From Cryphonectria parasitica EP155 (taxonomy: Eukaryota; Ascomycota; Sordariomycetes; Diaporthales; Cryphonectriaceae), in NCBI RefSeq assembly GCF_011745365.1, contig NW_024468912.1:1364001-1428000 (forward strand): 64,000 nt of DNA. The letters run 5' to 3'. Positions 14,664 through 62,700 of this stretch are shown piece after piece. Position 1 is the first letter of the stretch. Each line of letters begins with the position of its first letter. The notes under the pieces were generated by a model. It saw only the letters and a program-made list of their open reading frames with translations, was not told where the DNA came from and did not search any database. The position numbers were made by a program, and so were the translations under genes.

Positions 14664-14946
14664 ACACTCTTCTTTCATCAATTTGACGATATTCCTCGTC
14701 AATTGACCCTGAATTACGAGCCCACCTTTGATTTCTGACCTCGTACGCGCTCGCGACGGTCAAAATCACCAAAAACCACGAGAAAGAGGCCTGAAAACCT
14801 CCACTCGACCACACTGCGAGGACGTCGAGAACGGCGAAGAACCCTCGCAACAACAACAAACAGCTGCAACAGAGGCGCCAGAAGCCCCTCAACTGCAGCA
14901 ACAACAACAACTAAACCTTCCCCTTCAGCAAGACAGTTCGTTGAAG

Positions 14947-17900
14947 ATGGAGGAATCTACGAGTCGGCCATGGCAGCCGATCACCCACGCCATCCCTGTC
15001 CTCCTCGGCGAGAAGAACCTCGAGGATTGGTCAGTGATGGTAGCATCGACCCTTAGGCAAATGTGCCTAAGCAAATACATCAAATCCTCTGTCCCTGAGC
15101 CTGACGAAGAGAAGGACCCTAAGGGATGGAACAAGTGGAACCAAGAGCAGGGAACAGTGGTTACCCTCCTTCAAAGCACACTGCACAAGGTGAGGAGCAC
15201 GCTGACGAACGCTGGCCTCTCTGTGGGAGAGGAGGACCCGTATGTGATATACAACGCCGTCCTCAAGACGATCCCTAAGCACTCAGAAGACCACATCGAC
15301 CAGATAGCCATACGACTGGCAAACTGCAAGGTGGCAGACTACTCGACTCTCCAAGCCTTCAGAGACGACCTACAGTATATGAAGAGACGCCTGAAGGAGC
15401 TCAAACTGGAGCCCCCAGAGGGCTTCCTCCTTGCTATCGTCCTGAAAAAGATTGAGGATGTGCTACCAGAAATGCACGCGTTTGCCAGAAGGGACCACAA
15501 GCTCGGTACGCTTACCTGGGACAACCTTATGGCAGAGATCAATTCGGCTATCGTCACAGGTACAGGTAACAAGGCCTTTTCATCCTTCAAGAAGACAGCT
15601 CAAACGTCGACCTCGTCGAATGCTTCAGGAGGAGCTCAAGGGGGTGCGAGGCAGTGGCCTCGCGAGGACTCCCTGCCCTCCACAGGCATCGTCAACGGCG
15701 TCAAGCTGCCTAAGTCGATCATCGAGAAGATTTCCTACTGTTGCCAATGCAAGAGATACCTTCTTACTGGCTGGAAACACTGTGAGGAATGTGGCAAGTG
15801 CCATGGCACGTCTGCACGAGGCTGCAGGAACAACACTCAAGGCCAAGCAACCCAGCCAATATCGACGAACTCGTCGACCACGGCGGGACCAACAGTTTTT
15901 GGTGGATCGAGCGTGGCCGGCAAACCAGCTACGGTCGCCATCTCTGCCCTCGTCGAGAACGGAAAACTCTCGAGGGATAGCATCATTGCTGATACAGGCG
16001 CTTCAGAGACGCTCTTCAACGACCCCAAGTGGTTCCTGGACCTGGTCCAACTACGCGAACAGGAAGCCATGGAGTCAGCAGCAGGACCCTTCAAGATAGA
16101 AATGGCTGGAACGGTACAGTTCGACGTGGTACGCGACGATGGATCGGTCGCTACTATCACGCTCGAGGATGCCAGATTCTCCCCAAGCACGCCTTGCAAC
16201 CTCATCAGCGTGGGTAAGCTGATGGCGCGTGGATATGGCTTTGACGGCCGTATGAACCACATCGTCAACACCACGAACAAAAAGGAGGTATGCCAGGTCA
16301 ACTGGAAAGAGGGGGTGCCAGTCCTGAAGGCTGTCGACCGCTCTGAACCCTCAGGGGGTGGATTTCTAGCCAAACCGGCGATGCTTACGTCGGTCACGTA
16401 CAAACGCCTTCACGATCGCTTTATGCACGCTGGCCCAGCGGCCATACGAGGTGCAGCGAAGAGGGCTGGCATCACGATCGTCAAGGACAAGGATTTCCAC
16501 TGTGAACCGTGCCTTGAAAACCGCCTGACGGACATGTATGGAAAACACCAGAAGTCCAAGTACAATGCCCCTGGCCAGCTTATCCGCTTTGATCTTGTCG
16601 AGTTCAAGGAGGGATACAATGGCCGTCGCTATTGCCTTCACTTCGTCGATATGGATACGAACTTCCACTGGGTTTACTTTGCGAACAGGAAGCACGAGGC
16701 ATTCGGCCAGATCAAGGAGTTTGTTGCTTTCTTCGAGCGTCAATCGGGCAGGAAGATCCAGGCTCTTGGATGTGACAATGGACCAGAGTTTGGCCTTGCT
16801 ACAGCCCTATTCAAGGACTCAAAGCTCATCAGATGGGCAAATGAGAACGGCATCGCCATCCTCCGCACTATTCCTCATTCACCGTGGATGAACGGCAAGG
16901 CAGAAAAGGCTGGCCGAGACATAGTCGAGAAGGCACGAACAGCCCACAACGCAGCTAATCTTCCTTCACAGCTGTGGCCGTTCACGATGGAAGCGGCCTG
17001 CCGTGTAATCAACCTTCTCCCGTGCACAGCAAACGAGGACAACAAAGCACCCATTCAGTTGTTGGGAGAACGCCTAAACCTCGACAAGGAGGCGATTCCT
17101 GATGCTGGCTTCCTCAGAGTCGTTGGCAGCGAAGTCTGGATCCACGTGAAGAAGGCATATCGCCAGTCGAGCGACAAATACGCCAAAACGGGCATCAAGA
17201 CTAAGCTCCTCTCCTGGGATACACCTTCAGGGAAGATCGTATGGGTATACGATGCTAAAGCTGACAAGGTCTATCGAGCAGTGGCTATCAAGATACGAGA
17301 ATGCGAAGACCCCCCTCTGAACGACCCAGAGATGGAGGAGGTCGAGCATGTGGCTGAATTTGGCGATACCTCTATCGAAGACGAGTTCACGACGATCACG
17401 ACGATCCTCGAGGAAGCCAACACCCTACCTACCCTCCAAGAGCCTATTATCCGACTAGGCACGCCTATCGAGGACCGAGAGACCTCAGACCCTCAAGATC
17501 AAGCTCCTGACGCACGTTTGAACGAGACTCCAACCGAGGTTCCAGGGCCTTTCCAATTGCCAAGCCCAGGTTGCACCCCTGAGCCAGAAATACATACAAA
17601 GGTGCAGGGCAGGGAAGGGTCTGGGGAAAGCCAGAAGAACAACCCTCGGTGCAGCCCTACAAACAAGACAAAGGGCCAGAGAGGGGTTCTTGGAGACACA
17701 ACAGTAGAGGAACGAGATACAATAAACCAAGAGGAGGAATCGGTGGGAGGACCATCTAGGGTCCTGCCATCCGTTGAAGACCTTCCTCATGATGATATTC
17801 CCCAGGGCGTACGAGATGAAGATGTCCTGGTCGAGGAGGAACCCATCCCGAGGTCCCGTCGACCTCGTTCAAGCACTCCTCAGGTCCCCACGAGGGAACA

Positions 17901-24236: not shown

Positions 24237-27200
24237 ATGTTCTGGCGATTCGGCGGCTACGCCAACATCTCCACCATCGATACCATCCTCGACAAGTCCG
24301 ACTTCACCCTCGAGGAGCTTCTGGACGAGAGCGACCTGATCCAGGAGCTGAAACAGCACAATGCAAAGCTCATCGACTATCTCAGGGACGAGCCCGTCCT
24401 GGTGAGCCTGCTCGAATACGTCGTTGCCCCAAGGCTTGAACCCGTCGCCACCCCCGATACCGATGCCACCGCTGCCGGTGCCGCCGCCGACGATGATGAC
24501 GACACTGACAAGGGTAAGGCTCGCGTCCTACCTTTCTCCCGGCCCAGGGTGTCCTCGCGCGCATCCGAACCCGAGAACAAGGAGGAGGAGCTAGAGAAGA
24601 AGCGCAACAGATATGCCTATGTCGCTGCCGAGATCCTGGCCTCGGACAACTGGTCTATCTGCGAGGCCCTCCTCGCGAACAAGGCCATGCTGCGCAACTT
24701 TTGGGACTTTTTGCGGCGGGATACCCCGCTTGATCCGCTGCAGGCCAGCTACTTTACAAAGGTCAACGAGGCCCTCTTCGACAAGAAGACCGAGGAGATG
24801 ATCGACCTGCTCAAGTCCATCGAGAATGCCGTTCCCGACATGCTGCGGCATGTCGACTGCCCTATGATCATGGACCTACTGCTCAAGATTATCAGCCTTG
24901 AGCGAACAGAAGCTGGACAAGGCATTGTCGAGGTACGTCTGCTTAAACCACGAGAGGCCCTGACACCTCCCTTCCCCCGCTAACCTCATCTGTCCCCCCC
25001 CAAAAGTGGCTCTACACACAAGACGTTATGCCGACCCTCCTCTCCTTCCTCGGTCCCGAGCACAGCTGGGCGACCCAGACCTCAGCTGGTGATTTCATGA
25101 AGGCTATCATCACCGTCTCGGCCAACGCCTCGCAGAATGAACAGACGTGCATCGGTCCCAACGAGCTTACTAGGCAGCTGGTGTCAAAGCCCTGCGTCGA
25201 GCAGCTGATAGCATACATGCTGGGTGGTGGGAACGCTCTCACCGTCGGCGTGGGCATCGTCATCGAGGTGATTCGCAAGAACAACTCAGACTATGATCCT
25301 GATGTCGGCGCCGAGGCCAATGCTATCCCTTCAAGTCGGGATCCGATTTACCTTGGGACCTTGTTGCGGCTCTTTGCAGAAAATGTGCCTGACTTCATGA
25401 ACCTGATCATGAATGCCCCGGCGCAAAAGGCACGACTGGTCTCTACATTCGGCGATAAGATCGAGCCGCTCGGCTTCGACCGCTTCAAGACATGCGAGCT
25501 GATGGCAGAGCTGCTGCACTGCAGCAACATGGGCCTGCTGAACGAGGTCGGGTCGGAGGAATTGATAGCAGTAAGAGATGCCGAGCGCCAGCGGCTTCGG
25601 GTCGATGGAAGGCTGTCCTCCCTGCGCGGTGAAGAGCTACCTTCGTCTGCAGATGATCTCACCATGAGGATATCCCACTCGTCTCCCGTTGATGAAGGTC
25701 GGCTGCAGATCACCAACATCTCGGAAGACGACGGGTTCGAAGAAGTGGCTCACAGCACTGAGATGACCGAGGACACTTCACATGAGTTTGTCAATGCCGC
25801 AGATGAAATACAGTCTGGCCACCCATCGTCATTCTTGGACAAGGACGACGACGATTTTGTGGATGAGCCCCTCACGTCGCCTCGGCTCAACGTTGCCTCT
25901 GATGAGCTGGAGAAGCCGCACTTCGACGAGCCAGACCTGGTTGTTGCGCCCCTTTCCCCATCCAAGCAGAAGGCTGTCGAAGTTGACGAGCTGCCGAGCT
26001 CGCCGCCACCCATCGGAGAGGACAAGGTTGAGGATCTGGTGGAGGACTTGCAGAAGTCTATCCTCGAAGACAAACCGGCAACGCCGGAGGTGCAGGACAC
26101 AGCTGCTGCCGGCGACAACAGCGAGGCTTCGAGCACTCCTGGCACCAACACACCTGCCGAGTCTTCTGTGGCTGGCTCCGAGGCCAAGCCTGACAAGGTC
26201 GAAACTGAGGCAGCAGAAGCGGCAGAGCCCGTCGAAGCGGCTCTTGATGATAACGAGAAGCCCGCTCCTCTGTTTCTCCCAACAACAACAGCTGCAGCGG
26301 AGGAGCAAAAGGCCGTGGCACCTGATGCTGAGGAAGGCCAGACGGCGGTGGGATCGGCGGAACCGCCGGCTCAGCCCCCGCAGGAAGCTGGCGACGCGTC
26401 CGTAACTGATGCTAAGGAAGGTCCCACAGAGTCAGATCTGTCAAACCTCCAACCTGTTGTCGGCGACTTCTTGAAGATGCAGTTTGTTGAGCACAATGTC
26501 GTGCCGACGATCCTTTCATTCTTCTTCAAGTATCCATGGAACAACTTCCTGCATAATGTCGTCTATGATATCGTGCAGCAAGTTTTCAATGGGCCCATGG
26601 ACCGCGGCTACAACCCCACCCTGGCAATTTCCCTGTTTGAAGCTGCCGACGTGACGACCCAGATCATCAACGGCCAACGCGCTAGTGAGGAGTCGCAGCG
26701 GCAGTCAAAGACCCGGATGGGCTACATGGGTCACCTTACACTCATTGCCGAGGAGGTAGTCAAGTTCACTGAGCGCCACCCGCCTGAGCTTCTCAGTGAG
26801 ACTGTCTTGCAGAGGGTCATGGACCAGGAATGGATCAACTACGTCGAGGGTGCATTAGCTGAGACCCGAGAACGTGACAATGCCATACTGGGCGGAGTTC
26901 GCCCCGAGGTGGCTCTGAGCAATCGTCAAGCCGGCGGCCTTGCTACAGTAGGGCTATCCAGCCTCGGCGCAGCATTCGGCAGCTCTCAGAGCGGTGGCTC
27001 CAACGCCCTTGCGGAGGCAGGTTTGAACGGCAGCCTGGGTGATATGGGCGGGGATGGAGGAGGAAACGGGATCGGGCCTTTCGCCATCTCTGCTGGGACC
27101 CTGATGTCTGGCTTTGGAAGCAGCTCTGATGAAGACGAGGACGAGGAGGCTGAGAACGAGGAGGATGTCAACAATGAGGTTAGTTCTTCCCTAAATCGCC

Positions 27201-27820
27201 GTCCTAGGAGGCACTCTGGTTTGTCTTTCGAGGGCCGCCCTGCGCCGCAATCTTTTATTCGTTCTGTCAGCATGAGTGCTGTGGACGGCAGCGACGAGGA
27301 GGATTCAGGGGATGATGAAGAGCCACCGAAACAATCCAAAGTGCCCATCTCTCGCACGGCTGCCAACCCGATCAGAAGCGCTGGACTGTCAGACAATGAC
27401 GAGCTGGGCCATGAGTCACCTGATGATAAGTACATTCCGGGTGGCCTAGACTTCATCGCAGCTAGCAGGTCTTGGTTCTCAGAGGATCAATCGTTTCAGG
27501 ACGTGTCGTTGGATGAACATTCGGATGCGTCCCTGGACCATTGTTCGCCTGACGAGTGGGAGGACGTGGATGAGGAAGATCGCGAGGGGGAGGAGCAAGA
27601 GGAATTGGACCCTGTCCGACAAGCGGAAGATGGGGAGTCGCAGACAGCTGTCGTTGACCAAGTGGAGAGCGACAAGTCGGAGACCGTATCAACCATCACC
27701 CCCCAGAGCAGGAACCCAGGCCCTTCGCATCCCATTAAGCAGACGCAGCAGAGCAATGGAGGATTTCTGCTCGAGCTCGCCCAGCCTCGCCACGAAGCGG
27801 AAACGACGATGTGGGCATAA
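24237..27820 (+). CDS. Sit4 phosphatase-associated (SAPS) protein
   Basis: Two exons, 24237-24932 and 25007-27820, join in phase (GIVE|WLYTQDVMPTLL) across a 74-nt intron to give 1169 aa. The first residues MFWRFGGYANISTIDTILDK are the conserved start of fungal SAP/Ekc1 proteins. The SAPS helical repeat region covers roughly residues 100-420 and resumes at about 710-850 (FFKYPWNNFLHNVVYDIVQQ). An acidic, Pro/Ala-rich disordered insert separates them, and the tail is acidic (FGSSSDEDEDEE). These proteins bind the PP2A-like phosphatase Sit4/PP6 and direct it to targets in the G1/S transition, TOR signalling and mitosis. Intracellular; housekeeping in character. Confidence 0.9.
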
Positions 27821-38173: not shown

Positions 38174-41100
38174 ATGGCCCAGGACACCACCAGACTCGAG
38201 AGAGTCTCTGTCCCTCAGAACGCCGCGAGTTCCGGTAGCCAACAAAAAAGCGGCCGGCCGAGTACGATAGAGGATCGTATTCTCGATTCCTTCGCCAGCT
38301 CCCTGTCATTGTCTCCCGAACGGCTCCGTGAGTCCCTGTCTGCAGATCGGCATGAGAACCAGCGTTCAGGAGACTCCGGCGCAAGCGATATGCCTCTGGC
38401 AAACATAGATGGCCTCACTATTCAGACCAAGGTGTTGGCCGGCTCCAGGACGCTCGCAGATGTAGAAACCAAGGTCGTGCCGCCGTCTGCGCATTCTATG
38501 GCTGCTGAAGTCGTTGATATGGAGTCCTACGAGACGGAGTCTGATGCGACCGAGGAATACCACGATGCGCATACCAATGAGGAGGACCATGACAGTTCTT
38601 CCGAGGACGACTTCGACATGCGGTCTGCTTCTATCATGATTGCGCCCGAAAAGATCCACAGGGCGAGTCGCATGGACTCCATACGGCTCAGGGCTGGAAA
38701 TCAAGACTTCGACAAGCATGTGCGCATGCCGAGCGTGGACGATCCGCCGCCGCCAATGCCGACGAATTCTTTCGAGAAGCCTGGAGAGGTGGAACTTTTT
38801 TTGGGCTCAGAAAAGTCCGTGTCTAAAGTTGTCATCATCAGGCCACGAGCTGGGCTCTTCGAGGAGAAACTGGTCGCCTGCCTGACCCTCACCAGCATAT
38901 CCCCAAATGGGGTTGATCCTTCCAAGGTCGATCTGATCCAGCCAGCACAGATGTTCTTCGCAGGCACGCAGATTGCAACGCTGAAGCAGAACCTCAAGGA
39001 CACCAAGCTTGTCGACGACAAGGCTATACCAGAGGTATGGATTCCGTTGGATAATATGCCTACTGTACCAGAGACGGACGATATCGACCGGAGAAAGCTC
39101 CGGACTTGGGTTCAAAACGCGAATTCCGACATATACGAGCGGGTGATGGGGATTGCGACGGACCAGACTTTGCAGCAGCCAGCTAGCGAGATGGAGAGGG
39201 AGGTTCAGAAACTTGTGGCGCGGGTACTGCACGTTCCTCAGGAGCAAGTGAGCATGAGCTTCACATTCGCATCGTTAGGTGGGGATGAGGCTACGGCTAT
39301 GGCCCTTGTCACAAATGCACGTGTTGAGTCGATCTTTCTGGAGAGCCACGAAATCCTGCAACACAACAATACACTTGCACACCTCGCGGCTTTGGCTACC
39401 CAGCGGGGTGGGCTTGCACACAAATGGACCGCGGACCAGGAAAACAAGGCTGCTGAGGGCAATACGAGCCCGACCTCGACTCACTTCGACCTCTCACCGA
39501 TGCAGAAGCTCTACTTCAACACCAAGATGGGTGGTGACCTGACGCTACGCGACTCGGGCGAGGGGAATTACAGGTTTAACACGTCGCTGCTTTTCCGCGT
39601 CGCCAAGGGATACAGCGTCTACGATATTTCTGCAGCCACGGATGCCGTCGTGGGACATCACGCAATGCTTCGCGCCCGATTTGTCAACGTCCAGGGCGAG
39701 TGGATGCAGCACATACTGCCCAAGGTCGAGGGCTCGTACTCTTTCATGCATTACACCATCAGCACTAATCAGCAGGTCGAGTCCGTTGTTCAGAACACCC
39801 AGGCATCCATCAACGTCGAAGAGGGACCCGTTTTCGCCGTGGCTCACTTCCAGACCACGGATGGCCACCAGATGATCTACGTTGCCGCTCATCACCTCGT
39901 TGTGGATGTGGCGTCGTGGCGACTGATCATTCAAGATATGGACGAGTTATTACAACATGGTAGCCTCTCATCGCAAAGGGCCATGCCGTTCCAGAAGTGG
40001 GCCGAGCTGCAGAAGCTGGACGCGCAGATGCCATCCGGTGGGCTTCCCTTCGAGTTGAGTCCTGGGGATCTGGATTATTGGGGGCTGTTGGACACACCGA
40101 ATACCTATGCAGACGCCAACGAGGCGAGTTTCTCGTTATCCGAGGAGCTGACATCCATCTTGGAGACCACGTGCAATCAGGTGCTGAGGACGGAGTCGGT
40201 TGACATTTATATCGCTGCACTGCTTCTTTCCTTTGCCCAGACGTTTCCAGAAAGACAGATACCGGATGTCTGGAACCAAGAGCATGGTCGGGGCCTGTGG
40301 AACAACGAGATCGACATTTCTGAGACGGTCGGATGGTTCACATCCCTCTGCCCCCTCAACCAACAAATCAATGCCAGCAGCGACTTTGTCGACGTGCTCC
40401 GCCGATTGAAGGATACTCGACGGGCAATACCTCACCGAGGTGCTCACTACTTCGCCAGCAAGTTCTACTCGAATGATGATGGGAACACAGACATGATGAA
40501 CTCAGCACGGCCTCCGTCACCCAATACTCTCCAGATTGCGACTCGTGACTGGCCCATCGAGATACTTTTTAGCTATGCTGGAAATATTCAAAACATTGGC
40601 AGGGAGAATGGCGTCCTCGAGCAGATTGCCCTTCCAGGACGCACACTCGACTCTAGAATTTCCGACATTGGACCTGCGGTAGGCCGAATTTCTCTGTTCG
40701 AGGTCAACACGACGATCGACCAAGGGTCGGCCAGGATCAAGTTTCTTTACAATCGACATAGCCGGCATCTAAATCTGATCAAGTCCTGGATCAGCAACTA
40801 CGAGCACCTGCTTCTCGAGGCCATCGGCCGTTTACGATTTGCTGATCCCGAGTTGACCCTGGCTGATATTCCACAGCTCTGGGCTACTGGTGTCACGTAT
40901 GAGGGACTGGCTACGCTGAACAAGACTGTGGTAAGCGAATTGGGACTAAGTGGCGTTCACGAAGTCGAGGCTGTCTATCCAGTCACTCCCGTACAGCAGA
41001 GTATTCTGGTCAGCCAGGCCAAATCACTTCAGTTTCCTGCCGGCTGCGGAAGGAGACATGGCGAGGAGAACGGCTTTCAGTATATGCCACAGCCGAGCAA

Positions 41101-44100
41101 CCCCGGAAATATGAATGCTTGTCATATTCACGTCATGTACGAGTTCGCAAGTCCAAACGGCGCTCCTGTGGATCTGGCTCGGGTGGTCTCTGCATGGGAT
41201 CAAGTCGTCGCCCATCACTCAGCACTCAGGACCGTCTTTATCGAGAGCATTGCAGAAGAGGGCTTATTCAACGCTGTCGTCTTGAAACGGTGGGCCCCGA
41301 ATATGTTGTTCCTCGATGCAACACCTAGCGAAGATCCGATCGACACGCTGAACAATCTCCCTCCGCTCACTGCTTACCCGGCGGTGAAGAGCGTGCCCAG
41401 ACACAGGCTGACGGTCTGCCACTCCCCCATGAAGACAGTTGTAAAGCTGGACGTGTCAGCTGCCTTATGCGACATGATGAGCGTTAATGGGATGGTTGCA
41501 GATCTGAGGAGAGGGTACGCCACGGGCAGGGCCATTCCAGTCACCAGTGGGGAGGCAGCCGTCTTCTCGTACTCTGGGTACGTCGACATCATGCGCGGAT
41601 TAGACCGAGACAGAAGTATCGCCTGGTGGAAAGAAACTTTAGGAGAGGTCACTCAGCCGTGCCTCTTTCCAAGACTGGACTTCTACTACGGAGGCGACAA
41701 CAAGGACCCAAGCAGGCCAAAGCAATACGCCAGTCTCCATACTGAGATTACCGATGTTCTTTTTCAGAAGGTTGCGGAGTTCTGCCGAGCCCAGAAGACT
41801 ACGATAGGCACAGTGCTGAGGCTAGCTTGGGGATTGGTGCTGCGCGCTGTCACCGGGAGCAGTGACGTGTGTTTTGGCTACAGAGCCCCTGGACGGTCTG
41901 CAACACTCGAAGGCATGAGGTCCGCTGTTGGATGTTTCGCAAATACGATTCCAGTGTCCTTTGACTTGTCTCCGTTCAAACCATTGGCCATCCTTCTCAG
42001 GCAGGTCGAGGATGGTTACAATGCCGCTCTACCACACCAGCATATCACCATGGCAGAGATCAGACATGCCCTGTGCGACGGCAAGAAGGGGGCTGGTCTC
42101 GATGTACAGCTCTTCAACACGTGTTTTGCTTTCACTGAGGAGCCCGCTGACCTGCACAGCCGCTTCACGCAGCCTACGACCTTGGAGCTGCGGAACGTGA
42201 TGAACCACGAAACGACCGACTACGACCTTACAATCAATACGCGTTTTAGCAACGCCACAGGTCGGTTGGTTGTTGATATTGGCCACTCGATCCTCTCGGA
42301 GACGCAGGCTCAGAACATTACGAATACATTTGCACGTGCGGTCATCGCCATACTTCAGTGTGCTTCGCCTGCAGCACATATTGGATCTCTCGATCTGTTC
42401 TCGGACCGCGACTACGCTCAGATTGTGGAATGGACCAACCCATCGGACAGGGATACCCAGCAGCAGAGGACTCTGTTGCACGAGCTCGTCTTTGCGCAGA
42501 GCATCACGCGGCCAGACTGCAAAGCGGTTTGCGCTCATGACGGTGACCTCACATATCTGCAGATCGAGGTTCTTGCCCACCGACTGGCGCACGTTCTGCT
42601 CGAAGCGGGTGTCGTTCCTAAAGGCAATTCAAGGGCTGCAGTGCCAGTCATCCTCGACAAGTCCAAATGGGCACCAGTTGCCCTGCTCGCGATTCTAAAA
42701 GCCGGTGCTGCTTTTGTCCCGGTTGACGCAGACGAGATGGGCTTCGTCGCCAAGATTGCCGAGCATCTCGGGCCTGCAAGCAAGGTGGCTGTCGCCTGCG
42801 TAGCAGCGGCGGAGGCCCTGGACAATGCCGATAATGAAGTTCCCTCGTTCGATCGTGTAATCTGCCTTGACGATGCGCTCATGAAACGCCTGGAACGTGA
42901 GGCTCCCGTTCCTGGACAGCTGCTGCCGCCAAGTAAGCCCGAAGACGTGGCCTGCGTCTTCTTCACGCCAACCTCGTCACGTTCCGTCCGCGGCATCAGC
43001 TTCACGCATGCGTCGCTGTCGACTTGTTTCCTTGGTCAGGGTCCAGTGTGTGGTATCAACAACACGACTCGCGTGCTGCAGCTATCCAGCTTCAATGTTG
43101 ATGTTGCCCTCTCTGAAGTGTTCACCACCCTCGTCAATGGCGGCGTAATGTGTATCCCGACGTCCAGAGACAGATACAGCGATTATACTGGATGTGTGAC
43201 GCGTTTCAGTGCCACCTGGAGCTACATGACGCCCTTGCTTGCTCGCAAGCTGAATGTGGAAATGCTTCCTACGCTCAAGACGGTCTGCTTCCGAACGCGC
43301 GGCTTGGACGAAGACACTTATGAGCCGTGGAGAGGCCGGAAGAGGGTCGTGATGGCTTATGGAGCGCCGGATGTCTGCCCGCTTGGTATCTCTTTTCTCG
43401 AGATTCATGGACCTCACCATCTTCGCGCCATTGGTCGACCTATCGCAGGCTCTGCGTGGATTGTGTCTGGAGAAGACCACAGAAACCTGATGCCCGTCGG
43501 CGCAGTAGGCGAGATGGTCATTGAAGGTCCTACTCTGGGAAAAACTTTCCGCAAGAGTAGCCTTGCTACAGCAGGGGACGATGGCAAAGATGCACCCGAC
43601 ACTCCCACCAGCCCTGGCCACAAGACGCCTTTTGTGCGAGGACACCAGCATCAGAAGAGCATCAGCACCATCGCGACTGAGGATACTGGTCAGGGGAAGA
43701 AGAGATACTACAAGACAGGGCACAGCGTGCGGTATATCGAGGGCGGTCTGATGGAATACGTCTCGTCCAAGCGGGATGACCTGGAGATCAACGGCCGCGT
43801 TGTCAACTTGGCAGAGCTAGAGCAGCAGATCCGCCGTGCTCTGGGGCAGCGCGTCGATGTCATGGTCGAAGCGCTGGCCTTCAAGGGTGAACGTGGACGA
43901 AGCCCTACGCTTGCAGCCTTCCTTGAACTGGGCGGTGACGGGAGTACTGCGGCTCCGCATGCCCTAGATTTGGCTAACCTGGGCGATGAGGTGAAACAGC
44001 GTGTTCATATGGCCAAGAGGATCGTGGAAAAGGCTTTGTTTGGAATAGTGCCCGACTTTATCATCCCGAAGATTTTCATCCCTGTTCGACATCTTCCGAC

Positions 44101-47100
44101 AACATACTCGCTCAAAGTAAACCGACGCAAGCTACAGAAGGTCATCAAGGGCCTGTCGCGCCAGCAGCTTCTCGAGCTTGCGACGGTTGAGAGCCCAGAG
44201 CAATTGTCGGACATCAATGCCTCGACTCCACTGCTGATGGGTGGGCTGGAGGCTAAGATCCGTGCCGTCTGGGCCCAAGTATTGAACCTCGACGAGAACA
44301 AAATTGCACTCAGTGACGGGTTCCTCAAGCTTGGCGGTGACGAAGTCTCAGCCGCCGAAGTGGTCGTCAGGTGCCGAAAGACGAAACTCCCTGCCAACAT
44401 CTCTGACCTCATGCGCGACGTTCCACTTGGTGAAATCTGCCACACGAGCAATACTCTTGTTGGCCATCCAAATCAGTCTGCAGTTCAAACTGATGAGTTC
44501 TCACAAGCGCGAGGAGGGACTTTAGATAGAGCGTTGGACAGCGCGATCGAGTCTATTCAGCAGCAGCAGCAACATGAGCAACAACAACAACAGCTGCTGC
44601 CGCAGGAAGATATCCCAGCGAAACAGAATCTAGCCAATTCTGTCGCACTGGTCGCGCCAACACCTCAGGTCATCGACAGAAACTTTATCGAGGAAACACT
44701 TGCGCCAAAGCTCCTCCTGGAACCTGAAGTCGTCCGCGATGTCGCTGAAGCCACGTCCACACAAGTCCGCGCCATCGAGACGGCGATGCTGACGCAGGGT
44801 CGGCTGCGATCACAATCGACGTCGCCTCACGGGCCTGGTCTCGCTGATGTGTCCTACTTCGTGTTCCACTTCACTGCCGCCAGCTCGACGTCGTCTGTCT
44901 CTGCCCGCCGCATTGAGGAGGTCTGCCACATCCTCGCGTCCATCCATCCCATTCTCAGAACAGCTTTCATCGCGCATGTGGAAGGGCAGAACCGTAAGCT
45001 CTACCAGGTTGTGCTGAGAAACTACAAGGCCGACTTCAAGCACATTCCACGCGTGCAGAGCTGGCGCCTGGGTGCAACTCTGGAGAAGGAGATCAAGAGA
45101 GACCGCGAAGCCCTGCTTACCCAGTGCGATCTGTTCGCCAGCCCCATTACACGCTTCATCTTCCTGGACGCGGGTAAGACGTCTACGCTTGTACTCCGAC
45201 TGTCCAGAGCCCAATATGATGACGTCTCTATTGCGCTCCTCGTCAAGGATTTGAGAAAGCTTTATGATGGTGGCCAGAATCCTCCACGTCGTCCTGGCTT
45301 CGCCGACTTTGTCCGTGAGGCTGCACTTGCTCATGTCGGTGGTGAGGCAGAACGCTACTGGCGAGGACTGCTGGAGCATGCAGTACCGACTCAGGTGGTG
45401 GCCCACACCAAGCCTCCCAAGCTGACCAGCTCGGTGCGTACGCTGCGCGAGTCGGTCTCGGTGAACACGGTCGCCATGGGCTCCCTTGGTATCTGCTTCG
45501 ACACCGTGCTCAAGGCCGCGTGGGGTATGGTGCTTGCGACCTTCTCGGGGACGCCTGATGTCGTTTTTGGTGAGGTTGTCGAAGGCTGTCACTCTCGAAT
45601 GCAACAAACCCTTGGTCCCTCGAGTGTGAACCGCGGTGGCGTGCTGGGTCCTACATCGACCATCCTACCAGTTCGCATCTGCTTTGCGGACAGCCCAACC
45701 AGCCCGCTGCACCTATTGAAGTGTGTGGCCAACCAGAGGACCGCGGGTATGCCGTACGAGAACCTAGGAATGCTAGACATCGTGGAAAAGTGCACACCGT
45801 GGCCATACTGGACACGTTTGAGCACCATTGTGCAACATCGGACTGATGCGGAGCTGCTTATGGACGGCAAGGCCAAGAGCTTCAAGCTGGGAGCTGCTCT
45901 GTGCAAGATCAACGTGATTGAGAGTGATGTGGTGGACATGCCGGATTTTCTGGTGCGAAGTCTCCTCAGAAACAAGCCAGCCATAGGTGCGACGGCCTCC
46001 AATGGAGCTGAGAAACAACAAGCCGCGAGTGCCCAGACGAGGTTAGAAGGTGACGAAGAGCTGGAGGTCTCGGTGTCTTTCTGCGAGCAGCGCGTCCCTG
46101 CCAACCTAGCGCAGGAGGTCCTGCACAAAGTCTGTGGTTTCGTGGGCCTGTTGACGGGCGTCAGCATCATGCAGTCTATCATACCGACGGCGGCGCAGTA
46201 CTCGGCTCTCGCGAAGCAGATTCCACTCGCCAACAGCACGTACGCAGGCAACCCGGCTGCAGGACCTGCGGGCGTCACATTCAACAACCCGTTCGGCGGC
46301 GGCTCGATTAGAGTCAACTTCGCGCAGCTGGAGGCCAAAATGTCGCCGGACCAGATCACCACCATCCAGTCTACTATCGAGGATGCCTGGCGCAGCACGC
46401 TTGACCCAAGGACCCTGGGCGTACCAGAGGAGCATGTCACTTCTGCTGCCTTCTACGATCTCTGGGGCTCACTTGTCCCCGCCGCCCAGCTGGCTGACTT
46501 CATCACTGATGAGATCCCCATGAGGCTGGTCGGTGAGCTTTCGACGAACCTCTTCAGCAACAGCCTCGACGGCTTCTCGGTCACGATGGAGGAGATTGTT
46601 GACAACCCGACCATGCTTGACCAGTTTCAACTCATCGTCAGGAAGGCGTTCGGCGGCGAAGGGCGTGACAGACCCGGCGCCCTAAAGATGAGGAGCAATA
46701 GCCTAGCGAATTCAGTGCGGAAGAGTAGCAGCCTCACCAATGTGGCGGGGGCGAGCTCGATTCGCAGCAGCAGCCCGACCAACCTGACCAGTGTCAACCG
46801 CGCGGGCACCATCTCTATTCATGGTCCGTCCAAATTGGGCCACAACAGGACGAGAAGTGACTCGACCGGCGGGAACACAGCTGGCTCATCGAACGGGGAC
46901 TCGCCTGCCATGGGCACGGCGCCTGTCTTCCCTGCACATCCTGCTGTTGCACCGCCCGTTAACAACCATCTAGCACAAGCATCTATACGGACTTTTGGGC
47001 CTCGGCACGCCCGGAGAGGCAGCGACGCAAGCAATGCTACCCACCACAGCATCACCACGACAACGACAGCTGTCACTGCACTTGACAGTGCCGGCCTGGC

Positions 47101-48727
47101 GCCGACGACAAGCGTCATGCACACCCCTCCCACGAGCGTCGGAAGCCCCGACCCTAGCGAGCTACCTGGTTCGGCCATTCACGCCTTCAAACGTTCCAAC
47201 AGCATCCGTCGCGCTGAGGCGAGTCCCGAGTCGCCTGTTCTCGGCAACGTCAACCTCGCCACGAGCCCTCCTGTAGTGCAGGCCGGCTTCGTCGCAGCAC
47301 GGAAGAAGTCCAACTTTGGGTTCGGAAGCAGCCTGCGACGCATGGCCAGCAACGCTCTCCGGCCTGGACTTCAAAATCACAGTCATGGCCACAGCCACAG
47401 CGCCTCGAGCGGGGCGAAGTCAGTTTCATCATCCTCAAACTCGTTACTGAAGCCACCAAAGTCTTCTGGTTCGGACTTGACAACGCACAAGGAGAAAGAG
47501 CTTGCTACAGCACCTCTGTCACCATGGGTGAGAGTGCAAAGCATGGCCCCCCAGCTACCACCCTTCTCCCCGTTCACGCCTGTTACGGACGATGACTTCA
47601 GCCTGAACGGGAGCGTCAACACATCATCCGACGGCCAGAGGACTGCTGCATCGCCTGACCCTTCTCAGGATAGGACCAGCCGGGGCACTTCGCCAGAGCT
47701 CGTCTTGCAACACAATAATGATGATGGTAAGGCTGACTTGGGCATGAGCATGGACGCGATCGCTCAGTCACCAAGAATATCCGGGACTCTGGTCCTTGAT
47801 GACAATGGCGAGCTGTCTCGTGCGGTGTCGTCCGAGTCCCTGACAGAGGGCGCCAGTACCTCGCGGGGTGACAGCGCGGATGTGTCAGCTGAGAATACCG
47901 AGGACGATGAAGATGAAGACGAAGAAGACACACTCCGGGCGGATGAGGCGCAGAAGCTCCTCGCCAGCGCGAACATCCAGGCCCAAGGGGCCCGAGACGG
48001 CCCCGACGCACAGCAGAAGGCCACCAGCGAGCGGAATCAACAAAAGCATGAAGATATCCCGAGCCCGAGCCCAGTAACAGAGACATTCTACATGGAGGAC
48101 GACGAGGGATCAGAGGAGGAAGATGGAGGCATGACGCAGTACGACTCCTTTGAAGAACTCGAGAGCGGGCCTGTGACTCCCAGGCAGGACGGCGACGGCA
48201 CGAGGCCTGCCAGCACAGTCCGCTCGCCGGAAACACAGACACAGACATCATCACCACCTCGTCAGAAGAAGAGCGCAGGTCTACCTGGCTCTTCTTCCCC
48301 CAAACCTCAGCACTCTCCACGGTATAGTGTCTTCCCGCGCACCTCCACCCAGGCCTCCCCGCCCCAGTCTACACGTACCTCCACATCCACATCCGCCGTG
48401 AGACACACTGGACCACCCCCTGTGACACCTACCACGGCAGTATCGGCAGTACAAGCAAATCCCACAGCAACCGGCACGGATGTACAGGACTTTGCAACCC
48501 TCGAGGCCGCCGAGATGGACGACGTAGTCTCCCCGCTGACACCTGTGGAGCGGGCCATGCTGTACAAGCAGCAGGGCATGGGGCGTGGGCAGGGCAGGCT
48601 CGTCTCGGCTGGCAGGGTAGCGATGAACGTGAGCCCGCTGACGCCAGGCTCATATTTCCCACAGCAACAGCAGCAGCACCAGCAGCAGCAGCATGGGCCC
48701 TCTTTGGGTGGGTTTCACGCTATATGA
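38174..48727 (+). CDS. Giant NRPS-derived protein lacking carrier serines
   Basis: One intronless frame of 3517 aa. Order of parts: disordered acidic N-terminus (1-200), C-terminal remnant of an adenylation domain, carrier T1, epimerization-type domain, condensation domain, adenylation domain, carrier T2, Q-rich linker, second condensation domain, T-like domain, and a 680-residue Ser/Thr/Pro-rich tail. The order resembles the end of a cyclic-peptide synthetase (T-E-C-A-T-C). Key catalytic positions are lost: GGDE replaces GGDS in T1 and T2, the A-domain SGSTG loop is gone, and both C domains have a broken HHxxxDG. Such a protein should not carry out thiotemplate synthesis, yet 10.5 kb remain open, implying selection for another, perhaps scaffolding or regulatory, role. 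No signal peptide. The start at 38174 is the first ATG of the frame; codon use looks like that of neighbouring genes. Confidence 0.9.
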   Translation: MAQDTTRLERVSVPQNAASSGSQQKSGRPSTIEDRILDSFASSLSLSPERLRESLSADRHENQRSGDSGASDMPLANIDGLTIQTKVLAGSRTLADVETKVVPPSAHSMAAEVVDMESYETESDATEEYHDAHTNEEDHDSSSEDDFDMRSASIMIAPEKIHRASRMDSIRLRAGNQDFDKHVRMPSVDDPPPPMPTNSFEKPGEVELFLGSEKSVSKVVIIRPRAGLFEEKLVACLTLTSISPNGVDPSKVDLIQPAQMFFAGTQIATLKQNLKDTKLVDDKAIPEVWIPLDNMPTVPETDDIDRRKLRTWVQNANSDIYERVMGIATDQTLQQPASEMEREVQKLVARVLHVPQEQVSMSFTFASLGGDEATAMALVTNARVESIFLESHEILQHNNTLAHLAALATQRGGLAHKWTADQENKAAEGNTSPTSTHFDLSPMQKLYFNTKMGGDLTLRDSGEGNYRFNTSLLFRVAKGYSVYDISAATDAVVGHHAMLRARFVNVQGEWMQHILPKVEGSYSFMHYTISTNQQVESVVQNTQASINVEEGPVFAVAHFQTTDGHQMIYVAAHHLVVDVASWRLIIQDMDELLQHGSLSSQRAMPFQKWAELQKLDAQMPSGGLPFELSPGDLDYWGLLDTPNTYADANEASFSLSEELTSILETTCNQVLRTESVDIYIAALLLSFAQTFPERQIPDVWNQEHGRGLWNNEIDISETVGWFTSLCPLNQQINASSDFVDVLRRLKDTRRAIPHRGAHYFASKFYSNDDGNTDMMNSARPPSPNTLQIATRDWPIEILFSYAGNIQNIGRENGVLEQIALPGRTLDSRISDIGPAVGRISLFEVNTTIDQGSARIKFLYNRHSRHLNLIKSWISNYEHLLLEAIGRLRFADPELTLADIPQLWATGVTYEGLATLNKTVVSELGLSGVHEVEAVYPVTPVQQSILVSQAKSLQFPAGCGRRHGEENGFQYMPQPSNPGNMNACHIHVMYEFASPNGAPVDLARVVSAWDQVVAHHSALRTVFIESIAEEGLFNAVVLKRWAPNMLFLDATPSEDPIDTLNNLPPLTAYPAVKSVPRHRLTVCHSPMKTVVKLDVSAALCDMMSVNGMVADLRRGYATGRAIPVTSGEAAVFSYSGYVDIMRGLDRDRSIAWWKETLGEVTQPCLFPRLDFYYGGDNKDPSRPKQYASLHTEITDVLFQKVAEFCRAQKTTIGTVLRLAWGLVLRAVTGSSDVCFGYRAPGRSATLEGMRSAVGCFANTIPVSFDLSPFKPLAILLRQVEDGYNAALPHQHITMAEIRHALCDGKKGAGLDVQLFNTCFAFTEEPADLHSRFTQPTTLELRNVMNHETTDYDLTINTRFSNATGRLVVDIGHSILSETQAQNITNTFARAVIAILQCASPAAHIGSLDLFSDRDYAQIVEWTNPSDRDTQQQRTLLHELVFAQSITRPDCKAVCAHDGDLTYLQIEVLAHRLAHVLLEAGVVPKGNSRAAVPVILDKSKWAPVALLAILKAGAAFVPVDADEMGFVAKIAEHLGPASKVAVACVAAAEALDNADNEVPSFDRVICLDDALMKRLEREAPVPGQLLPPSKPEDVACVFFTPTSSRSVRGISFTHASLSTCFLGQGPVCGINNTTRVLQLSSFNVDVALSEVFTTLVNGGVMCIPTSRDRYSDYTGCVTRFSATWSYMTPLLARKLNVEMLPTLKTVCFRTRGLDEDTYEPWRGRKRVVMAYGAPDVCPLGISFLEIHGPHHLRAIGRPIAGSAWIVSGEDHRNLMPVGAVGEMVIEGPTLGKTFRKSSLATAGDDGKDAPDTPTSPGHKTPFVRGHQHQKSISTIATEDTGQGKKRYYKTGHSVRYIEGGLMEYVSSKRDDLEINGRVVNLAELEQQIRRALGQRVDVMVEALAFKGERGRSPTLAAFLELGGDGSTAAPHALDLANLGDEVKQRVHMAKRIVEKALFGIVPDFIIPKIFIPVRHLPTTYSLKVNRRKLQKVIKGLSRQQLLELATVESPEQLSDINASTPLLMGGLEAKIRAVWAQVLNLDENKIALSDGFLKLGGDEVSAAEVVVRCRKTKLPANISDLMRDVPLGEICHTSNTLVGHPNQSAVQTDEFSQARGGTLDRALDSAIESIQQQQQHEQQQQQLLPQEDIPAKQNLANSVALVAPTPQVIDRNFIEETLAPKLLLEPEVVRDVAEATSTQVRAIETAMLTQGRLRSQSTSPHGPGLADVSYFVFHFTAASSTSSVSARRIEEVCHILASIHPILRTAFIAHVEGQNRKLYQVVLRNYKADFKHIPRVQSWRLGATLEKEIKRDREALLTQCDLFASPITRFIFLDAGKTSTLVLRLSRAQYDDVSIALLVKDLRKLYDGGQNPPRRPGFADFVREAALAHVGGEAERYWRGLLEHAVPTQVVAHTKPPKLTSSVRTLRESVSVNTVAMGSLGICFDTVLKAAWGMVLATFSGTPDVVFGEVVEGCHSRMQQTLGPSSVNRGGVLGPTSTILPVRICFADSPTSPLHLLKCVANQRTAGMPYENLGMLDIVEKCTPWPYWTRLSTIVQHRTDAELLMDGKAKSFKLGAALCKINVIESDVVDMPDFLVRSLLRNKPAIGATASNGAEKQQAASAQTRLEGDEELEVSVSFCEQRVPANLAQEVLHKVCGFVGLLTGVSIMQSIIPTAAQYSALAKQIPLANSTYAGNPAAGPAGVTFNNPFGGGSIRVNFAQLEAKMSPDQITTIQSTIEDAWRSTLDPRTLGVPEEHVTSAAFYDLWGSLVPAAQLADFITDEIPMRLVGELSTNLFSNSLDGFSVTMEEIVDNPTMLDQFQLIVRKAFGGEGRDRPGALKMRSNSLANSVRKSSSLTNVAGASSIRSSSPTNLTSVNRAGTISIHGPSKLGHNRTRSDSTGGNTAGSSNGDSPAMGTAPVFPAHPAVAPPVNNHLAQASIRTFGPRHARRGSDASNATHHSITTTTTAVTALDSAGLAPTTSVMHTPPTSVGSPDPSELPGSAIHAFKRSNSIRRAEASPESPVLGNVNLATSPPVVQAGFVAARKKSNFGFGSSLRRMASNALRPGLQNHSHGHSHSASSGAKSVSSSSNSLLKPPKSSGSDLTTHKEKELATAPLSPWVRVQSMAPQLPPFSPFTPVTDDDFSLNGSVNTSSDGQRTAASPDPSQDRTSRGTSPELVLQHNNDDGKADLGMSMDAIAQSPRISGTLVLDDNGELSRAVSSESLTEGASTSRGDSADVSAENTEDDEDEDEEDTLRADEAQKLLASANIQAQGARDGPDAQQKATSERNQQKHEDIPSPSPVTETFYMEDDEGSEEEDGGMTQYDSFEELESGPVTPRQDGDGTRPASTVRSPETQTQTSSPPRQKKSAGLPGSSSPKPQHSPRYSVFPRTSTQASPPQSTRTSTSTSAVRHTGPPPVTPTTAVSAVQANPTATGTDVQDFATLEAAEMDDVVSPLTPVERAMLYKQQGMGRGQGRLVSAGRVAMNVSPLTPGSYFPQQQQQHQQQQHGPSLGGFHAI
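38780..39163 (+). other. NRPS-derived protein: adenylation C-subdomain remnant
   Basis: Residues about 203-330 contain a beta-alpha region and WIPLDNMPTVPETDDIDRRK, which aligns with the A10 segment (usually P-x-G-K-I-D-R-R). The A10 lysine position is Asp-rich and altered. The large N-terminal adenylation subdomain is absent. Confidence 0.7.
39182..39388 (+). other. NRPS-derived protein: carrier domain T1 without Ser
   Basis: Residues 337-405 follow the T-domain pattern (EREVQKLVARVL...SFTFASLGGDEATAMALV). Codon 372 (GAG at 39287-39289) encodes Glu at the phosphopantetheine attachment site. Confidence 0.85.
39467..40843 (+). other. NRPS-derived protein: epimerization-type domain
   Basis: Residues about 432-890 start FDLSPMQKLYF and include HHLVVDVASW (His 573-574), NQEHGRG, SETVGWFTSLCPL and EILFSYAGNI, all E-domain landmarks. 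The HH pair is kept, but the catalytic Glu of the usual NEGHGRE motif is Gln here, with a Glu one place later. Confidence 0.82.
40946..42358 (+). other. NRPS-derived protein: condensation domain C1, degenerate
   Basis: Residues about 925-1395, with VYPVTPVQQSIL, HHSALRTVF, and GYRAPGRSATLEGM...VGCFANTIP. The active-site motif reads VSAALCDMMS (residues 1094-1103) in place of xNHALIDGxS: Ala replaces the catalytic His, and Met the Gly. Confidence 0.82.
42461..44143 (+). other. NRPS-derived protein: adenylation domain, degenerate
   Basis: Residues about 1430-1990. AILKAGAAFVPVD (A2) is recognisable. A3 reads VFFTPTSSRSVRGISFTH rather than FTSGSTGxPKG, A5 reads AYGAPDVC rather than YGPTE, and A7 YKTGHSVRY has His for Asp. 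The A10 Lys seems kept (SLKVNRR). ATP binding is doubtful. Confidence 0.82.
44216..44428 (+). other. NRPS-derived protein: carrier domain T2 without Ser
   Basis: Residues 2015-2085, EAKIRAVWAQVLNLDE...FLKLGGDEVSAAEVV. Codon 2057 (GAA at 44342-44344) gives Glu at the carrier Ser position, the same substitution as T1 but with a different codon. Confidence 0.85.
44666..46168 (+). other. NRPS-derived protein: condensation domain C2, degenerate
   Basis: Residues about 2165-2665, including HPILRTAFI and VFGEVVEGC. The active-site motif is LSRAQYDDVS (Arg 2345, Asp 2350) instead of LSHAQYDGxS seen in terminal cyclising fungal C domains. Confidence 0.8.
46346..46639 (+). other. NRPS-derived protein: third carrier-like domain
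   Basis: Residues about 2725-2822. IEDAWRSTL...AAFYDLWGSLVPAAQLADF and TMEEIVDNPTMLDQF match the helices of a T domain, but the loop reads DLWGSLVP with no GGDS. Confidence 0.6.
46679..48724 (+). other. NRPS-derived protein: disordered Ser/Thr-rich tail
   Basis: About 680 residues rich in Ser, Thr, Pro and Gln with basic-serine patches (RSNSLANSVRKSSSLT, FKRSNSIRRAE), SP/TP sites, an acidic run (EDDEDEDEEDT) and a final Gln/His repeat. It looks like a phosphorylatable signalling or docking tail, which is unusual for an NRPS. Confidence 0.75.
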
Positions 48728-59740: not shown

Positions 59741-62700
59741 CTAACAAGTAACGCTGTCTAATATGTATATGTTCTTCTCTATCCATGCCCACATGCTCAT
59801 GACAGCCTCCTTCTCTAGCGGCTGAACCCTTCTCATAACCTCTGACGCAGCCTCTGCCCGCTTCACATCAAAAACAACACTGAGACTTTCGTGGTGGTCG
59901 TCCGAATGAGCATACATGCTCTTCCAGAGATGAAGCAGGGACCGTGCTGGATGATTCCCATGCTCGAGTGCCGTCTCGAGTTGGTGCAGCCACGTCTGCG
60001 GAGAGACGATTTGGATTTTATGTGCACCAGTCACGTTGTCGGTCGACACTCGGCCGGTCTTACCCGAGTCTTGTTTTACCAATGAACTCTCATCGGCAAT
60101 CCAACCGACCATCTCTGACCACATCGGCCCTTGGTGCGGATTCAAAACATGATACACAGGTGTTCTCTGGTGATATTTCGACCCGTGCGCAGGCCCATCT
60201 AGAGCTTCGTTGAACGAGATGTCCAGGACAGCCCTCGCGGCGACATCTGCAGGCAGCCAGCTGAGAGGTTCCTCTCCCAGGTCCGGAAGACAGTTTGTGA
60301 TCTTGGCCGAGGAGAGCATGATTGGGTACGCCTCAGTCATGTTCCAGACCCCGTGTTTATTCCCGCAGAGCTGGCCGACACGAATGATGACAATGGGTGA
60401 TTTTTCCTGGGCGGGAAGGGTGCTGTCGACGTTGATAGTAGGTGGAGAGACACTCCCGCCCACCTTGGCCGTGGTGCAGATGTTCTCCGCCACCCATTTC
60501 GACCTGGAGTAGCCGAGAGGAGACGCATCTTCTGGCTCGGAACTGAGTGTCTCAGGTATGGCGCGCTCTGCGGCACTTCTTGCAGAAGACACAGCTGCTA
60601 TCGATGATATGAAGACAAATCTTGCTGCCGCGCCGCCCGTGGCATCTCTCAATTCGAGGAGGTTGTGAAGGCCACTCAGCTGATCTTCAAAAGACTTCAG
60701 CCTCAGACTAAAGTTGACTGACCACGCCGAGTGGATAATCATGGTAGCCTGGCTGGTAAGCTGGGTCCAGTCGCTATCCTCAAGCCCAAGCCTTGGTTTC
60801 GAGATAGCACAGGGCATACAGACAAGTCTTGTTCCCTGTTCATGCTCCATGTTCACCGTCGCCAGCCCTCGAGACTTGAGTGATTTTTTGATGCGCCTGA
60901 CTCCATCATCATGACTCTGGGTGCGGACCAGACAAAAGACTTTCGAGACTTTGGCGTCCTGGAGGAGTAGATCGAGGATGTGAGCTCCCAAGAATCCGGT
61001 AGCACCCGTGAGGACGACGACGCGCTTATTTTGATGGTCGAAGGATCCCGTCGGCGCTTGTATGGCATGCCGATATTTCTCGACTAGGTCCAGCATAAGT
61101 TGTTCCTCGTCGGTGTCTTCTTCAGCGGCAATACCGTTCAGAGTCATCGTACTATCTGCTGCATTCCGGCATCGTAGTATGTATTTCGATAGCTGATCGA
61201 TAGAGCCTTGCTCGTATATGATATTGAGCGGCAGCTTCTTGTCGGTGTCGAAAAAGGCTCTTGAAATGCTATTTCTGAGGCGCGAGCAGGCGATCGAGTC
61301 CACGCCTTGTGCAAACAAATCGCCTGTGGGGCTGACACGTCGTCCAAGAACATTACTGAAAAGCTTCGTGAGCTCCTCCAGAACTTTGCTGTCAGGAACG
61401 TTGACCTTTTGGGGAGGAGATCCCCCTAAAGTCGCTCCATCTCCATACACTCCTTCGATGTCATACTTGAAAAGCTTCTCTGCTTGCCTCCTCAGGATTG
61501 TGCCCTTGCTACTCTTCGGCAACGCAGTAGTCCCGCCATTTTTATCCATAACAACAACAATACTTCCCCTTCCTATCTTGGCGTGCCCTTGCGCCTGAGA
61601 ATTCATCTTTTCAATCACAGGCCACACATCATCGATGACCTGCTGATTATTGACGTAGTCAACCCCCCGTTTTGTAACAAGGAGCAGGCCAGGCGCATCT
61701 CGCCCCGTGCCAAAGATCATGGCATCTTCCAGAGCTCGCCTGCCCACAGCTGAGGCCAGAAGTTCCGCCTCTACTGGTGCAGGATCAAATTTCTTTCCGT
61801 TCACGAGTGTGATCTGCGCATCTGCTCTGCTGTGGTACCGCCAGGCGTTTGGGATCGTAGGATGCTGTTCGAACAAGTCTGCCGTCGCAAAGGAACCATC
61901 TGGTCGGTTTGTTTTGCCGCGATGCGGCCAATGTGGTTTTACCACGAATTCAAAGAGCTGAGGACCATCCTCGCCTTCTTGCTGCTCGGTTTGAGGCATA
62001 AAATCGTAGTACTCTGGTTGTAGAGAAGGATCCGCTCGCAGCCATGACCATTCTCGGTCTGTAGCATAGTCTCTGTGCGACGAGAGCAGAAACCCGCACT
62101 CAGCACTACCAAAACGCGAGATGAGCTTGACGCCATTGGAGACGAGGTCATCGCCTAGTGATGGAGGCAGAGCGGCCCCTCCGACGCCGACGAGGTCCAT
62201 GCTTTGGAGAACATTCATGCCGGCAGCGGCAGCTTCTGCATCGTCTTCGTGAATCGAAGATCCAGAGACCAGCGACTGTAGGACATAGGGCACCGAGGTG
62301 AAGTACTTGGCAGGATATGCGCCCTGAAGATACGCATTGGCTCGGTCGACGGCCCGGAGCACATTGACTGCCGTGATCGGCTGCGTTCCCGGAAACAAAT
62401 GGATCATGGCGCCGCTGGACCACGCACGAAGGCAGTCTGCGATGCCACCATGATACAAGGGCGTGGTAGAGAAACTGGCATGACTCTCACCTCCAGTCAG
62501 CCGTGGGAGAACGCCGACAGCAGCGTGGTGCGTCTGAGGAATTGGCTTAGGCAGGCCGGAGGAGGTGCCTGAGGTGTGAAAAAGGTAGGCGATGTCACCT
62601 GGTTTGGGACTCTTGGTGGTTGTGATTGTCGGAGAGTCGGATCTCAAGTTGTGCAGCACGTTGCTGATGTTGATGGCGAAAGTGCCGCCGTCCTTCGACC

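Follow-up and report, generated by a model that had tools for sequence, protein, structure and literature searches.

A giant protein of Cryphonectria parasitica related to nonribosomal peptide synthetases belongs to a Sordariomycete family with lost catalytic motifs and may be a conserved scaffold

The gene and its domains

The window analysed here is a stretch of 64,000 nucleotides from Cryphonectria parasitica EP155 (contig NW_024468912.1, positions 1,364,001 to 1,428,000), in which an open reading frame (ORF) on the plus strand, 3517 codons long and open from its ATG over 10.5 kb, encodes a protein resembling a nonribosomal peptide synthetase (NRPS). Domains homologous to the condensation (C), adenylation (A), carrier (T) and epimerization (E) domains of NRPSs are present in NRPS order, and Pfam recognises three condensation-type stretches, one AMP-binding stretch and two carrier (PP-binding) stretches. 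We argue that the protein belongs to a family that has lost its catalytic centres and that, with a probability of roughly 0.6, it is a conserved pseudo-NRPS (pseudo-megasynthase) scaffold. The features are listed below; domain boundaries are approximate, and those of T0 were set by eye.

38174..48727, +: whole ORF, 3517 amino acids (aa), pseudo-NRPS (T0-A_C-T1-E-C1-A-T2-C2(CT)-T3-tail); homologues over up to 100% of its length
38261..38464, +: T0, vestigial N-terminal carrier (alignment consensus, motif counts; model confidence low)
38756..39133, +: adenylation-domain remnant, C-terminal subdomain only (aa 195-320), N-terminal part missing (sequence IDRRKLRTW; helices and strands of the model)
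39176..39403, +: T1 carrier fold (Pfam PP-binding; model helices)
39287..39289, +: Glu372 (GAG), which replaces the phosphopantetheine Ser and starts helix 2 in the model
39476..40918, +: E domain fold
39890..39907, +: HHxxxD of the E domain, retained (aa 573-578)
40277..40279, +: Gln702, replacing the catalytic Glu of EGHGR (alignment)
40961..42403, +: C1 condensation fold, with SAALCDM at the HHxxxDG position
42467..44158, +: A domain, with TGD changed to TGH and the substrate Asp kept
42959-42994, +: altered A-domain P-loop, FFTPTSSRSVRG
44231..44443, +: T2 carrier fold (Pfam; model)
44342..44344, +: Glu2057 (GAA), which replaces the phosphopantetheine Ser and starts helix 2 in the model
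44666..46228, +: C2, a condensation fold of the terminal (CT) type
45203..45223, +: C2 SRAQYDD replacing [HS]HxxxDG (X-domain-like inactivation)
46316..46618, +: T3, terminal carrier-like helical domain (model helices)
46463-46474, +: WGSL of T3
46661..48724, +: C-terminal Ser/Thr-rich tail, 688 aa, 26 SP/TP
48530-48562, +: tail motif SPLTPVERAML, one of two Diaporthales motifs (the second being PFTPV)

The sole Pfam AMP-binding stretch falls outside the remnant at aa 195-320. Codon reading confirms what the first-pass annotation, made from the letters alone, had reported of the carriers, namely that T1 and T2 both read LGGDE (codon 372, GAG; codon 2057, GAA) and that the third carrier-like domain has WGSL and no GGDS (DLWGSL, aa 2762-2767). 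Its statement that no carrier keeps its serine holds for T1, T2 and T3, and it overlooked a fourth, vestigial carrier, T0. In T0 the GGDx motif is absent from the window protein; among the 184 relatives a regular expression detects it in 106, with E, H, Q, K, R, D and others as the last residue and never Ser.

The nearest named protein in NCBI, P0003, is a partial C. parasitica EP155 model (M406DRAFT_37891) that aligns to window residues 195-2825 with five gap openings (113 positions) and two mismatches at gap edges, and its carrier residues are identical; since the same assembly could be its source, it does not count as independent sequencing. As controls, all six carrier motifs recognised by regular expression in the other NRPS loci fetched from C. 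parasitica are GGDS (five in the C6 region L021/L022, one in L020), and an NRPS-like reductase within the window (59744-62659, - strand; AMP-binding and male-sterility-type NAD-binding domains) has an intact carrier (QGVDS). The five motifs of the C6 region lie in a 4972-codon open frame with five condensation-type matches (G000:C6:3557036-3570223). The gene is single-copy in C. parasitica: a search of its genome (43.8 Mb in 17 contigs) with the E-domain region gave a next best match of 27% identity and 40 bits, and therefore no close paralogue was found.

A monophyletic Sordariomycete family

Relatives were collected by three homology searches, from which the best 120 of 682, 724 and 443 matches were taken, giving 257 proteins together; all family counts come from these. 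The alignment comprised the window protein, 189 proteins of 1500-3700 aa and 65 segments of long synthetases, and the tree of the E and C1 domains (n=250) kept 184 of 188 family sequences, P0210, P0222, P0236 and P0250 being dropped for short coverage. The canonical comparison set has 67 segments, P0255 and P0257 being counted in it; in 9 of them a gap or a substitution removes one or two of the five residues of E, C and T that are compared below. P0242, P0246-P0248 and P0253 were tried as family members and rejected, being long, without an E-domain match and carrying GGDS and HH/SH motifs.

In this tree the 184 family sequences form one clade with support of 1.0 and no canonical sequence inside, and their sister is the pair P0072 and P0080 (support 1.0). 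The deepest split within the family separates 99 from 85 sequences (support at least 0.998 each). Clades were named from their named members, and the gene models of the relatives are of mixed quality; on this basis the 85-sequence branch corresponds to Xylariomycetidae. The named members of the family belong to what we take, from their genera, to be Diaporthales, Sordariales, Coniochaetales, Magnaporthales, Glomerellales, Microascales, Hypocreales and Xylariales.

In Diaporthales 34 of 38 members have at least 3400 aa. Most folded domains vary much less than the tail, and the family has 43 class-specific residues that are almost invariant, 11 of them in the A domain. By sequence comparison the family is a monophyletic Sordariomycete class in which the long frame, the domain order and the folds have been kept, and the gene is akin to the terminal T-E-C-A-T-CT portion of large fungal NRPSs such as P0072 and P0080.

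Loss of the catalytic centres

The loss extends past the carrier serines, because the catalytic residues of E, C2, A and mostly C1 are also gone in the family. Counted over the 184 members with gaps excluded, the epimerase Glu of EGHGR is found in 0/184 sequences against 67/67 canonical ones (Gln in 174), the C2 His in 0/183 against 62/65, and the C1 His in 7/176 against 65/66. The A3 P-loop motif is present in 0/184 members against 20 of the 24 canonical segments having the region, and the A7 Asp in 4/184 against 24/27. For the carriers, Ser remains at T1 in 25/168 (67/67 in the canonical set) and at T2 in 3/184 (59/62). The assignment of the E domain was checked by alignment to tyrocidine synthetase, where Gln702 falls on the Glu of EGHGR. 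All seven sequences with the C1 His are from Colletotrichum; two of these also have the T2 Ser, and otherwise the remaining four residues are absent. In 152 of 184 members all five residues of E, C and T are gone, and no member has more than two. The E, A and C2 catalytic motifs are thus lost in every family member examined and the C1 motif in all but one genus, which bears out the suggestion of the first-pass annotation that a protein class left thiotemplate chemistry while keeping the multidomain scaffold.

Orthologues with GGDS, together with relaxed selection in this copy, had been named there as what would speak against the idea. This applies only in part: Ser does occur at T1 in the 25 members mentioned, but every one of them lacks the E-domain Glu as well as the C2 His, and the lineage of the window protein is conserved. 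Parsimony reconstructs a family root that carried Gln both at position 702 and at the C1 His site and Lys or Arg instead of the C2 His, with T1 still Ser; the E and C centres thus died first, and the T1 Ser was lost afterwards in several lineages.

A pseudogene, or the relaxed decay of an old NRPS, would account for the lost catalytic motifs and for the drift of T2. We nevertheless regard it as highly improbable given the 10.5-kb frame, which is not broken as a pseudogene's might be, the full length of most Diaporthales members, the 43 newly fixed residues and the conservation of most folded domains relative to the tail.

Part of the E-domain active site persists, HHxxxD being kept at H573 (182/182), H574 (169/182) and D578 (182/182). 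Several relatives without a T1 motif lose H574, with HR in Monosporascus and HQ in three of four Fusarium/Thelonectria-type rows; Annulohypoxylon keeps HH without a T1 motif, and HR is also found alongside the motif in Coniochaeta sp. 2T2.1 and in some Xylaria. An altered enzyme, in which the E domain would use its HHxxxD for a different reaction or accept a carrier supplied in trans, is nonetheless unlikely in our view: the catalytic Glu is missing in all 184 members, PDB entry 9bfg has Ala in its place (which we take to be an engineered inactive mutant), the protein's own carrier has no Ser, and H574 goes along with the T1 motif in several of the relatives just named, Annulohypoxylon excepted.

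The A domain also keeps its substrate Asp (A4) in 183/184 members despite the loss of the P-loop and of nearly every A7 Asp. Together with the 11 class-specific sites in this domain, this would suit a metabolite sensor in which the dead A domain binds an amino acid or a related ligand through the Asp, does no adenosine triphosphate (ATP) chemistry and signals through the C and E folds. However, the A10 Lys, which contacts the carboxylate, is kept in just 111/183 members and the conserved Asp may be structural, so that this explanation too is an improbable one.

The glutamates at T1 and T2

At T1 the Glu is present in 37/37 Diaporthales (one gap) and 34/34 members of the Sordariales/Coniochaetales clade. 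In the 80-sequence clade that holds both groups (tree length 11.5, with 9.2 changes at a site on average) parsimony gives a single change at this site, 18% of sites having as few or fewer, and for the root of the 99-sequence branch the reconstruction is ambiguous between Ser, Pro, Glu and Asp. Among the 85 Xylariomycetidae the T1 position changed 26 times, a higher number than at 93% of sites. Twelve kinds of residue occur there, with Ser in 23, Glu in 19 and Pro in 9 of 73 sequences, so that Glu arose in this group too. The T2 Glu is found in 38/38 Diaporthales and is fixed only there, 34% of sites being likewise invariant in that order; the site changed 12 times in the Sordariales/Coniochaetales clade, a higher number than at 92% of sites, 14 times in the 80-sequence clade and 30 times in Xylariomycetidae (more than 97% of sites). 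GGDE is therefore fixed in orthologues at T1 in Diaporthales and Sordariales/Coniochaetales and at T2 in Diaporthales, but not in Xylariomycetidae, where both sites drift. The T1 Glu appears moderately constrained in the lineage that contains Diaporthales, and the T2 Glu appears to be under no special constraint. With T1 slow and T2 ordinary, the claim that the Ser-to-Glu change at two domains by itself argues against decay is not supported.

Of the 168 T1 residues, 155 are Glu, Asp, Ser, Pro, Gln or Thr, all of which favour the start of a helix; in the two structure models helix 2 begins at Glu372 and at Glu2057. Because Glu starts helix 2 in the models and the kinds of residue found at T1 suit a helix start, a structural helix cap would be the simplest reading of Glu372, and a simpler one than mimicry of a charged carrier. 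T2 does not fit the helix-start rule, its residue being Ile, Val or Ala in 71/184.

The first-pass annotation suggested that Glu could imitate a charged or phosphorylated carrier; in the form considered here, it would imitate the negative charge of a phosphopantetheinylated or phosphorylated carrier and lock T1 in a docked position on E. The uniform Glu of Diaporthales and of the Sordariales/Coniochaetales clade, with its single change, agrees with it. However, the T1 site varies in Xylariomycetidae even though the E domain is kept there (H574 78/85, Gln702 78/85), the Pro, Gln, Thr and Asp found at T1 are what a helix start would predict, and the hydrophobic T2 residues are hard to reconcile with it. 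We found no support for the idea and think it has little chance of being right.

C2, the terminal carrier and a proposed scaffold role

The inactivation of C2 has a recurrent form, with Arg or Lys at the catalytic His and Asp or Glu at the Gly (S[R/K]xxxD[D/E]) in 162/184 family members against 0/67 canonical segments. The glycopeptide X-domain is described as an inactive condensation fold that recruits P450 enzymes and in which HHxxxDG has become HRxxxDE (PMC6565677; PMC8949500). Compared with that domain, C2 has the condensation fold and the change from His to Arg (R2345), with Asp2350 at the Gly position (Glu in 18/184 relatives) and Ser at the first His position. As C2 is most like a CT domain, the X-domain-type change would be a parallel one and not a sign of shared ancestry.

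The absence of Ser in T3 is of another kind. Near the C-terminus P0072 reads FYDVWGNL and P0080 FYDVWGSF, against FYDLWGSL in the window protein, and since these catalytically complete sisters also read WGN/WGS, the Ser-less T3 was probably ancestral and inherited from working enzymes. A loss of the T3 Ser within the family was considered and rejected, because the sister synthetases with catalytic motifs share the Ser-less domain. When the last carrier motif of 70 comparison proteins was sought in the final 260 residues, it read GGD[IVL] in 44 and GGDS in 2, and none was found in the other 24. Pes1-type synthetases (e.g. P0062, P0064) have GGDI, GGDV or GGDL in the last carrier though their upstream carriers are GGDS.

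In the tail, SPLTPVERAML is found in 35/38 and PFTPV in 33/38 Diaporthales, and neither occurs in other clades; a third candidate, SESMT, taken from the alignment consensus, was dropped as a regular expression finds it in 3/184 sequences only. A long tail with motifs confined to Diaporthales would suit regulated docking.

We propose a recruiting scaffold because the change in C2 matches the type seen in the P450-recruiting X-domain. The family protein would no longer make a peptide, its C-type folds, above all C2, would bind partner proteins, and in Diaporthales the long SP/TP-rich tail with its fixed short motifs may add docking controlled by phosphorylation. Glu372 would cap the start of carrier helix 2 as a structural replacement and not as a mimic of the pantetheine arm, so that T1 could stay folded as a spacer or docking unit.

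Several points weigh against this proposal. Purifying selection is inferred from protein conservation alone, and the folds are not equally held, T2 varying in Diaporthales almost as much as the tail does (1.14). The T1 Glu is not exceptional, since 18% of sites in the 80-sequence clade are as slow or slower, and this clade itself has a support of only 0.08; the 26 and 30 changes at T1 and T2 in Xylariomycetidae mean that Glu is unneeded for the function of the family as a whole; and the alignments behind the two structure models are shallow (32 and 33 sequences). The HHxxxD retained in the E domain leaves room for some chemistry, and a pure scaffold does not need the substrate Asp of the A domain.

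The scaffold reading remains the one we prefer. The wider proposition, of a Sordariomycete class of giant synthetase-derived, non-catalytic hubs in which E, A and C2 died before the radiation and the carriers followed, and in which a C-fold recruiter evolved independently of the bacterial X-domain, seems to us evenly poised between true and false.

Genomic setting

Pfam searches of 27 neighbouring ORFs gave DUF829, aspartyl protease, retroelement, SIT4-associated, alpha/beta hydrolase, sulfatase and NRPS-like reductase matches, and a weak GDSL lipase match below the cut-off. A biosynthetic cluster around the gene was considered, and no coherent one appears among these results, in which introns were ignored and genes may be missed. 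Two of the neighbours are the following.

14728-19641, +: a retroelement, presumably of Copia type, with a long open frame (1637 aa) matching RVT_2, Pol_BBD and, below the cut-off, an integrase core
24237-27820, +: SIT4 phosphatase-associated (SAPS) protein; two ORFs match successive parts of the profile, so that an intron split is probable

In Neurospora crassa, one report lists NCU04531 as an NRPS, in a cluster with coordinated expression in conidiation that includes laccase, nuclear migration and spindle-pole genes (PMC9239088). Synteny with that cluster was rejected: family searches of the C. parasitica genome for GCP and Cu-oxidase type 3 gave no place inside the window, and NCU04531 is no more than a candidate orthologue.

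Comparison with known systems

A search of the literature on inactive, degenerate or pseudo NRPSs, limited to open-licence papers, gave no such family recognisable from titles and abstracts among the papers listed (in one case the best 15 of 621); PMC6563098 covers two other NRPS genes. Several family genes are named 'non-ribosomal peptide synthetase' in databases (e.g. P0012, P0017, P0040) and may therefore enter tallies of metabolite producers; should the proteins be dead scaffolds, these tallies, and the hunts for their products, would be misdirected.

The closest working enzymes, the NRPSs P0072 (Nemania) and P0080 (Ilyonectria), share with the window protein the terminal T-E-C-A-T-C(SHAQYDG) followed by a WGx carrier-like domain, but they are 5743 and 5917 aa long and have GGDS, EGHGR, HH/SHxxxDG and TSG[ST][ST]GxPK. 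Pes1 of Aspergillus and Penicillium and NRPS4 of Fusarium, the latter described with its product fusahexin in PMC10967133, have a similar T-E-C followed by T-C-T, and a Ser-less terminal carrier is common among them; they differ from the window protein in that their catalytic residues are present, and the Pes1-type rows P0062 and P0071 lack the A-domain motifs between C and T in the alignment. The CT domain, which releases and cyclises peptides (PMC8949500), is represented by that of TqaA (5ejd, 5dij), in comparison with which C2 has lost its His. The X-domain of teicoplanin and kistamicin sits in a glycopeptide synthetase, whereas the window protein belongs to a fungal family with a CT-like C2. 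The X-domain is thus a precedent for a single domain, and no multidomain precedent was found among the open-licence papers listed. If the hub reading is true, the class would be the assembly-line counterpart of pseudokinases, and it lets one ask which surfaces of a megasynthase stay conserved once the chemistry is gone.

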